A stretch of 7,165 nt of DNA from contig MHDQ01000080.1 in the NCBI GenBank assembly GCA_001803565.1, positions 1-7,165 of the forward strand, given 5' to 3'. Numbering within the stretch: the stretch's first letter is position 1; each line of letters begins with the position of its first letter. A model generated the notes under the pieces. That model was not told where the DNA came from and did not search any database. It saw nothing but the letters and a program-made list of their open reading frames with translations. The translations under genes were made by a program, and so were the position numbers. The stretch is from Nitrospinae bacterium RIFCSPLOWO2_12_FULL_45_22. GTDB taxonomy: Bacteria; 2-12-FULL-45-22. Of the stretch, positions 2,978 through 7,165 are shown piece after piece.

Positions 2978-4048
2978 ATGGGAGTCTACAAGAAAGGTAA
3001 AAGCTGGTACATAAACTTTTATTACCAGGGCCAGCGAATTCAAGAATGTGTAGGCCAGGCAAGTAAAACAGTGGCTAAGGAAGTCGAAGCAAAGCGGAAG
3101 GCCGAGGTTATAGAAGGCCGCTACAACCTGAACCAGAAGAAACTAACCCCTATCTTTGAGAACTTCTGCCAGCAGTATTTAGAAACCTACTCCAAGCCTA
3201 ATAAAAAACCTTCCTCTTACCTGCGGGATCAGTGCTCCATAAAGCGGCTAGGGGAGTATTTCAATGGAAAAAGGCTAGCTGATATTAGCGCCTGGTTAAT
3301 AGAAAAGTACCGGGCCAAAAGGAAGGTAGAAGAGGTAGCAGTAGCTACCCTTAACCGAGAACTGGCCTGCTTAAGGCATATGCTAAATACAGCCCGTAAG
3401 TGGAATAAACTGTACGATAGCCCTTTTAAAGATGTAAAGCTCCAGAGAGAGAACAATGGCAAGATGAGAATCCTTACTCAGGAAGAGGAAATAACCTTAA
3501 TGGATGTCATAAAGGTTAGCCCCAAAGCCCGGCACTTAGAGCCAATAGTTATTACCGCTCTAAATACTGGTATGCGAAAAGGAGAGATCCTTGGCCTAAA
3601 ATGGGGGGCAGTAACCTTCAAAGAAGGCTATATCACCCTGGAGAATACCAAGAATAATGAGATAAGGCTAATACCCATGAATGACAAATTGACAAATACC
3701 TTGAAAAATGTTAAAAAGGATTCCACGAGCGATTATGTCTTTATTAATGGAGACGGCTTACCATATAGAGATATAAAGACCGGATGGTGGAATGCGGTAA
3801 AAAAAGCCGGTTTAAGAGGGTTACGCTTCCACGATTTACGGCATACCTTCGCATCAAGATTAGTTATGGCAGGGATAGACTTAGTAACCGTAAAAGAACT
3901 CTTGGGACATAAGGATATTAAGATGACTATGAGATATAGCCATCCTACCCCGGAACATAAAAAGGCTGCGGTGAAAATTCTGGATCAAGTAACTACTATT
4001 TTAACTACTCCGTCCAAAGTAGCTATTTTACATTTCCCACAATCTTAA
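2978..4048 (+). CDS. Tyrosine-recombinase integrase
   Basis: This 356-residue protein is full length for a phage or ICE-type integrase. The ATG follows GGGAGGA with good spacing. Residues 1-50 form the arm-DNA-binding domain (KKGKSWYINFYYQG near the start). Residues about 58-150 are the SAM-like core-binding domain. The catalytic domain (about 165-335) carries the full set: R200 in TGMRKGEILGLKW, K225 in NTKNNEIRLIPM, H285 and R288 in HDLRHTFASRL, H311 in LLGHKDIKMTM, and the nucleophile Y320 in MRYSH. It should therefore be active in site-specific integration and excision through 3'-phosphotyrosine intermediates. Its stop is 13 bases before a tRNA-Arg gene, the usual kind of target for this family. 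No excisionase (Xis) is recognised nearby. Confidence 0.95.
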   Translation: MGVYKKGKSWYINFYYQGQRIQECVGQASKTVAKEVEAKRKAEVIEGRYNLNQKKLTPIFENFCQQYLETYSKPNKKPSSYLRDQCSIKRLGEYFNGKRLADISAWLIEKYRAKRKVEEVAVATLNRELACLRHMLNTARKWNKLYDSPFKDVKLQRENNGKMRILTQEEEITLMDVIKVSPKARHLEPIVITALNTGMRKGEILGLKWGAVTFKEGYITLENTKNNEIRLIPMNDKLTNTLKNVKKDSTSDYVFINGDGLPYRDIKTGWWNAVKKAGLRGLRFHDLRHTFASRLVMAGIDLVTVKELLGHKDIKMTMRYSHPTPEHKKAAVKILDQVTTILTTPSKVAILHFPQS

Positions 4049-4061
4049 GCTAGATAAGGAA

Positions 4062-4138
4062 GGGCGAGTAGCTCAGGTGGATAGAGCGTTGGTCTCCGGA
4101 ACCAAAGGCCGTGGGTTCGAGTCCCGCCTCGCCTACCA
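4062..4138 (+). tRNA. tRNA-Arg (anticodon CCG), CCA end encoded
   Basis: A full cloverleaf can be drawn. The acceptor stem GGGCGAG (4062-4068) pairs with CTCGCCT (4128-4134), with one G-T pair at the end. The D stem is GCTC/GAGC (4071-4074 and 4084-4087). The anticodon stem is TTGGT/ACCAA with loop CTCCGGA, placing anticodon CCG at 4096-4098, which reads the Arg codon CGG. The variable loop has 5 bases. The T stem is GTGGG/CCCGC with loop TTCGAGT. Discriminator A4135 and an encoded CCA (4136-4138) follow. It looks functional. It sits just 3' of the integrase gene and is the likely attachment site. Confidence 0.96.
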
Positions 4139-4332: not shown

Positions 4333-4361
4333 TTGACAAGAATATTTTTCTCCAATAAAAT
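4333..4361 (+). promoter_or_regulatory. Predicted sigma-A promoter of the NifH-NifH operon
   Basis: A perfect TTGACA (4333-4338), a 17-base spacer and TAAAAT (4356-4361) are present. Transcription would begin near 4368, about 47 bases before the ATG at 4415. TTGTC (4325-4329) and GACAA (4335-4339) form a short inverted repeat over the -35 box, a possible but weak operator. No sigma-54 -24/-12 (GG-N10-GC) promoter was recognised, so NifA-type control as in Proteobacteria is not supported. Confidence 0.65.
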
Positions 4362-4414
4362 GCCCATAATTAAACATTTGATTAACATACATTTAAAAAG
4401 CAAGGAGGAAGAGG

Positions 4415-6169
4415 ATGTCTTCACGAATCAGGCAGATTGCTATATATGGGAAGGGGGGTATAGGTAAATCCACCATTGCCTCAAATATCTCTGCAACATT
4501 AGCAGAAAAAGGATTAAAGGTATTCCAGATGGGCTGCTCTCCCAAGATAGATAGTACCTCCCTGTTAAACCGAGGAAATATCCTGGAACAAGATATCCTG
4601 ACCAAGATCCGGACTGTCGGTGCTACCAGAGATGGTTTTAAGGAGTGTATAGTTGAAGGGTATGGGGGAGTATTATTGGCTGAGTCAGGCGGACCAGAGC
4701 CTGCTACTGGCTGTGCTGGTAAAGGCGTTTCCCACGCCCTGGATATCCTTGCTCGTACACGCTTGCTAGAAGAATTAAGGGTAGAGTTTGTAATTTATGA
4801 TGTTATTGGAGATGTTGTATGTGGTGGCTTTGCCCAACCTATGCGCTCCGGCTATGCCCAGGAGATATATATTGCTTCTAGTGGAGAGCTGATGTCGATC
4901 TATTCTGCTAACAATATCTGTATCGCTATAAAAGAGCTGAGTAGCCAGGGGGCTTCGGTGCGGGTAGGGGGACTAATCAATAATATGCGAGGAGTCCCAA
5001 AAGAGGGGGAGTTGATGAAAGAATTTGCCCAGCGATTAAATATACCTATTTTAGCCAATATCCCTAGAGATAAAATTGTTCAAGAAGCAGAGGCAGAGGG
5101 AGGCACAGTAATAGAGAAACGTCCCGACTCAGCACAAGCTTTCATATATCGTGAGTTAGCCGAGAATATCATTAATAATACCTTCCTCGGAATTCCTACC
5201 CCGTTGGAATTAGACGATATATTAGGATTGCTCAGGCGCTATCAAGAGGTAGAAAGAGCCCCGTCACCTATAATGAAACCGGAGCCATCCATCCCCATCT
5301 CCCCTCTACAGTCTTCCACTGCCTCCCGAAAAGCTACCAATGGCCTATTGCGAAAAGTTGCCTTCTATGGCAAGGGTGGGATAGGAAAATCTACCATTGC
5401 TGCCAATATCAGTACTGCCCTAGGCCAAATGGGGGAAAGGGTCATGCAAGTAGGCTGTGACCCCAAGAGGGATTCTCTCTTTACCCTGTTTGGTAGGCTG
5501 ATGCCCACTGTCTTAGACGAATTACGCAAGGGTCCCATGAATAGAGATAGCCTCAAAGGCGTTATACATCAAGGAGCTAATGGTATCTGGGGGGTAGAGA
5601 GCGGGGGACCCAGGCCGGGTGTGGGTTGTGCAGGTGGTGGGGTGATGGAGGCCCTACGTTTACTAGAGGAATATCGTATTTTTGAGGAATATAATATAAC
5701 CTTTGCCTTATTTGATGTTTTAGGGGATGTTGTGTGTGGTGGCTTTGCTCAACCCATGCGGGCCGGTTATGCCCAAGAGGTTTATATCATCACTTGTGGT
5801 GAGATGCTTACCCTCTTGCAGATCAACAATATTGCCAAGAGTATAAAAAAACTGGCCGAGCGGGGTAGCGAATGTGCCTGTGCCGGGCTTATCAATAATA
5901 TGCGGGGATTGCCTCATGAAGAACAGATTGTGGAAGAAGTAGCTGCATTAATGGGTTTGCCAGTAGTGATGCACATCCCTCGCTCATCTACCGTCCAAGA
6001 TGCAGAACTACAGGCTAAAACAGTAGCTGAAGCCTTTCCCGATTCTCCCCAGGCCCAGGTATATAAAAACCTTGCCCAGAGAATATTAAATAACGATAAA
6101 ACCTATATACCTAAACCCCTTACTATGGAAGAGATCAAGTCTATCATCAGCAAATATGCAGGAAATTAG
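4415..6169 (+). CDS. Tandem NifH-NifH fusion (nitrogenase iron protein-like, two domains)
   Basis: This 584-residue protein is twice the usual length of NifH (about 275-295) and holds two complete Fe-protein domains. The ATG follows AAGGAGG by six bases. Half 1 (about 4-276) has P-loop GKGGIGKST (12-20; K13, K18), GCSPKIDS (40-47), GCAGKG (99-104; C100) and YDVIGDVVCGG (128-138; D129, D133, C136). Half 2 (about 311-582) has GKGGIGKST (319-327; K320, K325), GCDPKRDS (347-354), GCAGGG (404-409; C405) and FDVLGDVVCGG (433-443; D434, D438, C441). A Pro/Ser-rich linker spans about 277-310. NifH is normally a homodimer that binds one [4Fe-4S] between subunits and passes electrons to its partner with MgATP hydrolysis. 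One fused chain could supply all four cluster ligands. The Asp39 equivalent is Ser42 in half 1, and the Arg100 equivalent is K103 or G408. Both halves share AQPMR-x-GYAQE and GLINNMRG, suggesting duplication within one lineage. Partner and reaction are unknown. Confidence 0.93.
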   Translation: MSSRIRQIAIYGKGGIGKSTIASNISATLAEKGLKVFQMGCSPKIDSTSLLNRGNILEQDILTKIRTVGATRDGFKECIVEGYGGVLLAESGGPEPATGCAGKGVSHALDILARTRLLEELRVEFVIYDVIGDVVCGGFAQPMRSGYAQEIYIASSGELMSIYSANNICIAIKELSSQGASVRVGGLINNMRGVPKEGELMKEFAQRLNIPILANIPRDKIVQEAEAEGGTVIEKRPDSAQAFIYRELAENIINNTFLGIPTPLELDDILGLLRRYQEVERAPSPIMKPEPSIPISPLQSSTASRKATNGLLRKVAFYGKGGIGKSTIAANISTALGQMGERVMQVGCDPKRDSLFTLFGRLMPTVLDELRKGPMNRDSLKGVIHQGANGIWGVESGGPRPGVGCAGGGVMEALRLLEEYRIFEEYNITFALFDVLGDVVCGGFAQPMRAGYAQEVYIITCGEMLTLLQINNIAKSIKKLAERGSECACAGLINNMRGLPHEEQIVEEVAALMGLPVVMHIPRSSTVQDAELQAKTVAEAFPDSPQAQVYKNLAQRILNNDKTYIPKPLTMEEIKSIISKYAGN

Positions 6170-6664: not shown

Positions 6665-7165
6665 ATGCTAGAAAAGTTTATAGGGCAATATCACCCCTGG
6701 TTGAAGGAGCACCTGAGGAAGATCCAGGAGCACCCCTGTTATGATCCTTCCGCCCGTCATCTTTATGGAAGGGTCCATCTCCCGGTAGCCCCGGTGTGCA
6801 ATATAGGGTGCAATTATTGTATCAGGGAATTTGATTGTGTTCATGAGACCAGACCCGGGGTGACCAGCCGGGTCTTAACCCCTGAAGAGGCGCTAAAGAA
6901 ATTAGAAGTAGTAGTAGAAACCTATCCAGGGATACGGGTTTTAGGGATTGCTGGCCCGGGCGAGCCGCTGGCTAATGAAGAGACCTTCGTCACCCTTGAA
7001 CTGGCTCAAGCTAAATTTCCCCATCTGATCAAATGCCTCAGCTCTAATGGTTTACTTCTGGCAGACAAGCTCTCTCAGTTGAAAGAATATAATATCTCTA
7101 CCATTACCGTTACCTTAAATGCCGTTAGGGCCGAGATCGGCGAAAAAATCTATGCCTGGATCAAT
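6665..7165 (+). CDS. nifB: NifB-type radical SAM protein (C-terminus cut by right window edge)
   Basis: The first 167 residues are present. The ATG follows AGGA by four bases, 12 bases after the previous stop. Family: NifB joins two [4Fe-4S] units with a SAM-derived carbide to give NifB-co, the 8Fe-9S-C core of nitrogenase cofactors. Seen here: a conserved HPCYDPSARHLYGRVHLPVA-type start (23-42), the radical SAM triad C45-x3-C49-x2-C52, and then FDC (C58), whose spacing matches an extra cluster ligand of NifB proteins. ETRPGVTS (61-68), LGIAGPGEPLAN (93-104; NifB commonly GPGDP), LIKCLSSNG (121-129; C124) and EIGEKIYAWI near the window end also match NifB. Match to the family is strong over the whole visible part. 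The later cluster-binding Cys pair and any NifX-like domain lie beyond the edge. Its place behind the fused NifH gene argues for a metallocluster-dependent system. The nifB symbol reflects sequence type, not proof of nitrogen fixation. Confidence 0.9.
   Translation, partial: MLEKFIGQYHPWLKEHLRKIQEHPCYDPSARHLYGRVHLPVAPVCNIGCNYCIREFDCVHETRPGVTSRVLTPEEALKKLEVVVETYPGIRVLGIAGPGEPLANEETFVTLELAQAKFPHLIKCLSSNGLLLADKLSQLKEYNISTITVTLNAVRAEIGEKIYAWIN

Follow-up and report, generated by a model that had tools for sequence, protein, structure and literature searches.

What does a single gene that encodes two complete Fe-protein domains make: a covalent version of the usual dimer, or something else? To our knowledge, every Fe protein characterised so far is built as a symmetric dimer from a single gene product, with one [4Fe-4S] cluster bridging the subunits. 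The window analysed here is the entire contig C80 (7165 bases) of an 85%-complete MAG (G000), and it holds an ATG-started open reading frame of 584 amino acids (P0001) with zero internal stops, in which the Fer4_NifH profile matches twice at full length. The gene lies among these features:

4333..4361, plus strand: promoter-like box TTGACA-17-TAAAAT, 11/12 matches, in a region whose promoter-like hit count is not above chance
4405..4410, plus strand: Shine-Dalgarno AGGAGG, preceding the ATG of the fused gene
4415..6169, plus strand: fused two-domain Fe protein P0001 (open reading frame, profile matches, AF2 model)
4415..5260, plus strand: N-terminal domain, HN type; P-loop 12-20 intact, C100/C136; Ser42 replaces Av2 Asp39, Asp129 equivalent intact
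5249..5350, plus strand: flexible linker of ~34 residues, amino acids about 279-312, mostly low pLDDT
5351..6157, plus strand: C-terminal domain, HC type; P-loop 319-327, Asp349 (= Av2 Asp39), C405/C441
6260..6652, plus strand: SnoaL/NTF2-like open reading frame between the fused gene and nifB; profile match, positional association only
6665..7165, plus strand: 5' portion of a nifB-like radical SAM gene that runs off the end of the contig; TIGR01290, positions 6-156 of 441

The reading frame and the two profile matches agree with the initial annotation, which had claimed two complete domains in one chain; both P-loops and both cysteine pairs lie where it had placed them, and the Pro/Ser-rich linker is present. 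The whole protein scores 572.6 bits with the Pfam model, and the halves taken singly 286 and 294 bits. P0001 has the traits of the PF00142 superfamily (P-loop with signature lysine, two cluster cysteines, full-length match), each half carrying a P-loop, switch regions and both cluster cysteines. The halves are nevertheless unequal: the N half has Ser42 where the C half keeps an aspartate. The upstream part of the window contains a phage-repressor-like HTH gene (2315-2815) and a tyrosine recombinase gene (2978-4048) whose end lies 14 bases upstream of a gene for tRNA-Arg(CCG) (4062-4138). This region is probably an integrated element upstream of the tRNA gene, with the fused gene on the opposite side.

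Two tandem nifH genes could have been merged by assembly or gene calling, and both the MAG source and the existence of relatives with split tandem genes speak for such an artefact. We find it hardly credible. Between 5240 and 5350, where a stop or frameshift would have meant two genes, the assembled sequence has neither, and the linker is in frame. Moreover, the fused architecture recurs in four further genomes, which rules out an assembly artefact as a general cause. Relatives of both halves were found in nine of the ~1,050 genomes searched, five of them fused (the window, G584, G889, G899 and G901) and four split (G043, G100, G032 and G387). The fused proteins of G584, G889, G899 and G901 are mutually about 85% identical. 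The split form consists of two adjoining genes, HN then HC, spaced from a 4-base overlap up to 28 bases apart, and this adjacency and order are the same in 9/9 genomes. Thus the fusion is real and recurrent. It is not the basic novelty, since the same two domains are separate adjacent genes in four genomes; the underlying unit is an ancient pair of Fe-protein paralogues, HN and HC.

One and two fusion events were not distinguished with six concatenated pairs (AU p 0.196). In the N tree of nine pairs, G000 is placed nearer the split pairs than to the G584 group, and the sequences therefore lean towards two fusions, without proof. No relative was found in the window's phylum (two genomes searched) or in the viral contigs searched. 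An apparent double hit in G038 was rejected because its locus is an ordinary NifBHD. The G387 split pair lies on record JANQFG010000047.1, whose sample name, PL23a, suggests an origin in the coral-skeleton study PMC9868349.

The "two NifH domains" of the initial annotation hold for the Fer4_NifH fold but not for the family, as the halves fall below the cut-offs of the known types and form a clade of their own. With the nifH equivalog TIGR01287 each half reaches 312-313 bits against a cut-off of 394, and with the CfbC model NF033200 the halves reach 302 and 307 bits against 402. With the BchL/ChlL model TIGR01281 the C half has 207 bits against 345, and the N half stays below the listing limit. 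The whole chain passes these NCBIfam cut-offs solely by summing two sub-threshold domains, and a family-model pipeline would in this way name the fused protein "nitrogenase iron protein". Besides nine HN/HC pairs, our tree included 22 single Fe proteins, drawn from loci and plasmid records, and three more read from PDB alignments; the comparison set thus comprised 25 other Fe proteins, including NifH, MarH and BchL and with no CfbC row. HN and HC are reciprocally monophyletic (support 98/95 for each clade) and together stand apart from the 25 other Fe proteins (100/99), outside the NifH clade and without grouping with the MarH of 9fmg. A tree with six pairs also supports these clades. As each is one clade and both together are one clade, a single duplication must have preceded their spread.

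The two paralogues differ at the ATP site. At Av2 position 39, which we take to be the switch-I aspartate of the deviant-Walker ATPase site, all nine HN copies in our alignment carry Ser, and Asp stands in all nine HC copies and in 25/25 other Fe proteins; it is the sole column fixed in HN and fixed differently in HC. HN thus departs from characterised NifH, MarH and BchL, which have this aspartate in every subunit. The switch-I aspartate (Get3 Asp57, MinD Asp40, Soj Asp44) is required for normal hydrolysis. Cysteines 97/132, K15, D125 and D129 are retained in 18/18 HN and HC copies. Since HN thus keeps Asp129, which also has a proposed part in hydrolysis, some activity may persist at the HN site. 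In the G584 group both halves are under purifying selection, with dN/dS about 0.03-0.09.

HN might instead be inhibitory or purely structural, either not binding ATP or not using it, so that electrons would pass via HC homodimers. Such a role would suit the conserved loss of the switch-I aspartate; it sits poorly with the P-loop lysine, Asp125, Asp129 and both cysteines that HN keeps in 9/9 copies, and with purifying selection in the G584 group. It also conflicts with an engineered linked BchL, an active single-chain Fe protein in which ATP must bind both sites and a one-site ATP-binding knockout abolishes activity (PMC7948495). Taken together, we consider an inhibitory or structural HN very improbable. 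The linked BchL resembles the natural protein in having two Fe-protein domains per chain, and was built to make the ATP sites unequal; it differs in being a laboratory construct with identical halves. In the natural protein the binding lysine is kept in both halves and the switch-I aspartate is lost in one. The two-domain chain as an idea has therefore a precedent in the laboratory, and the earlier statement that no such reductase had been described is to be narrowed to natural proteins: no natural heterodimeric or fused Fe protein was found described in open-licence papers.

Further information about the arrangement of the halves was obtained from AF2 models of the fused chains of the window and G584 (pLDDT 85; pTM 0.79 and 0.81), made from shallow alignments of 14 and 16 rows, few of which cover both halves; one structure-model alignment was made without the plasmid-record rows. 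Each half of the window model matches NifH structures (Z about 39-41, rmsd 1.3-1.7); ArsA is absent among the structural matches listed, to which we attach no conclusion. Loosely placed domains should score clearly lower pTM, so that the two halves are probably packed together within one chain.

A second substitution bears on which subunits pair. The signature lysine K10 is replaced by Thr in HC of 4/4 G584-group genomes. In NifH, MinD and ParA ATPases this lysine reaches across the dimer, in trans, to the nucleotide bound by the other subunit, and BchL Lys-39, its equivalent, touches the nucleotide in the ADP-AlF3 complex. Because K10 acts across the dimer, its loss from HC would strike the HN site, which already lacks Asp39. 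That both losses hit one composite site is what HN-HC pairing predicts; self-pairing of each paralogue does not. The loss of K10 is one event in one clade, and its trans role is taken by analogy from the known ATPases.

Alternatively, HN and HC could each pair with itself, giving two homodimers with distinct tasks such as catalysis and cofactor maturation, the fusion merely co-expressing them. NifH is indeed known to work as the reductase and also to take part in maturing the cofactor and the P-cluster, and docking-surface residues differ between HN and HC (position 92 and the R100 equivalents), residue 92 being Glu in every HN copy but Arg, Lys or Val in the HC copies. We think this unlikely, as fusion in two distant lineages favours one complex, the HN-HC gene order is invariant with frequent overlaps, the whole chain folds confidently in two AF2 models, and the K10 and Asp39 losses of the G584 group coincide at a composite site only in an HN-HC pair. 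Our preferred reading, to which we give a probability of roughly 0.7, is that HN and HC form an obligate pseudo-heterodimer with one bridging [4Fe-4S] cluster and two ATP sites, one of them hydrolysis-competent, that serves nitrogenase-like DK enzymes. The covalent pseudo-dimer proposed by the initial annotation is thus supported by the split two-gene orthologues, by both losses falling on one composite ATP site and by the two models of pTM about 0.8. What it missed is that the basic unit is a diverged paralogue pair, the fusion being derived, and that one ATP site is degenerate.

Among known systems, MarH of the MarBHDK system (PDB 9fmg, PMC12552129) shares the Fer4_NifH fold, P-loop, cluster cysteines and a NifB-like gene nearby, and in G043, G100 and G387 the D/K partners of the pair fall together with a Mar-like D/K. 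Unlike HN/HC, MarH comes from one gene, forms a homodimer and keeps Asp39, and the Arg-His pair proposed as a Mar hallmark was not found in the partner D subunits of HN/HC. NifH (Av2) shares the domain fold (Z about 40) and the ATP-site and cluster residues with the fused protein but is a homodimer with Asp39 in both subunits. Av2 Asp39Asn (PDB 1xd8, 1xd9), which was crystallised, is altered at the same position, as a laboratory change in both subunits of the homodimer. ArsA also has tandem deviant-Walker ATPase domains in a single chain; it is an arsenical pump ATPase of other function, with no [4Fe-4S] and only weak P-loop similarity. The fused protein looks like a natural lopsided version of the Fe protein.

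NifD/K-like genes lie next to the pair or elsewhere in the genome for each split pair and for G584. The D/K of G043, G100 and G387 belong with a Mar-like pair, and G032 and G584 have D/K that make up a separate group. The partner D subunits keep the P-cluster cysteine equivalents 62, 88 and 154, and 4/5 have the cofactor cysteine 275 equivalent, missing in G584. In G000, G387 and G032 a NifB-like gene is close to the pair; in G043 and G100 one lies elsewhere in the genome. Among the six genomes searched, only G584 has no nifB match. This pattern fits a NifB-derived cofactor in most lineages. The MarD Cys270 equivalent is present in 4/5 partner D subunits and Arg428-His429 was not found in them; a Mar-like D of G532 is likewise without Arg-His at the MarD position. 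The DK partner of the window's own protein lies outside the assembly, none having been found in the 85%-complete MAG.

The only NifDK-like pair in the MAG lies on another contig (G000:C74, L062:9730-12362). We set it aside as partner, since it clusters with a NifH-D fusion system found in G387 (G387:C79, L047:1153-3372), in which a NifH domain is fused to a NifD-like domain in a 739-aa frame followed by a NifK-like gene. A single Fe protein of G000 (C86, L010:2840-3670) lies between old-yellow-enzyme-like and nitroreductase-like genes, and together with the C74 pair is probably a second nitrogenase-like system in the same MAG. In G100 and G043 a D-like gene lies apart from the HN-HC-K cluster (L063:2246-3613, L064:9307-10734), with tolQ/R/B-pal-like genes near it in both. 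The fused-group operons (L046, L080, L081, L082) include 3-hydroxyacyl-CoA dehydrogenase-like and aldehyde dehydrogenase-like genes, with transporter-like and molybdopterin-oxidoreductase-like genes near them; these neighbours are a lead to the substrate of the partner enzyme. Around the G387 pair (L028:3157-15561), inspection of the sequence by eye suggests genes of the nitrilase family and genes like those of dihydropyrimidine dehydrogenase and aldehyde ferredoxin oxidoreductase.

As to the pairing within the chain, the shared cluster, hydrolysis at one site and the cofactor, we infer the following course. The fused gene product would be the reductase (Fe protein) of a nitrogenase-like enzyme, a degenerate HN joined to a competent HC, with the halves packed face to face like a NifH dimer. 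Judging from conservation and the AF2 models, one [4Fe-4S] cluster would be shared via C100, C136, C405 and C441. ATP is expected to bind at both interfacial sites, because both P-loop lysines are kept; its binding would close the dimer and be needed for docking on the DK partner. Normal hydrolysis is expected solely at the HC site, because the switch-I aspartate and the trans lysine are kept there in every lineage, while the HN site may be a non-hydrolysing or slow clamp that holds. Such asymmetry would permit docking in a single orientation on the asymmetric D/K pair. Low-potential electrons would then pass from the shared cluster to a P-cluster-like centre and, in most lineages, a NifB-derived cofactor.

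Why two ATPs are used per electron, and whether both Fe-protein sites act alike, is debated. It is tempting to propose a family in several bacterial phyla of obligate heterodimers, fused in at least two lineages, with one hydrolytic and one conserved non-hydrolysing site, which hydrolyse just one ATP for each electron and hand it, always in the same orientation, to a partner enzyme; we offer this tentatively, at slightly less than even odds. A natural, conserved, asymmetric Fe protein is a ready-made separation-of-function experiment, and the order of losses can be followed in it: first the switch-I aspartate at one site, then the opposing lysine in one group, while the binding residues and the cluster ligands stayed. 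In summary, HN/HC marks an uncharacterised branch of nitrogenase-like enzymes, for which NifB-derived cofactors are probable.
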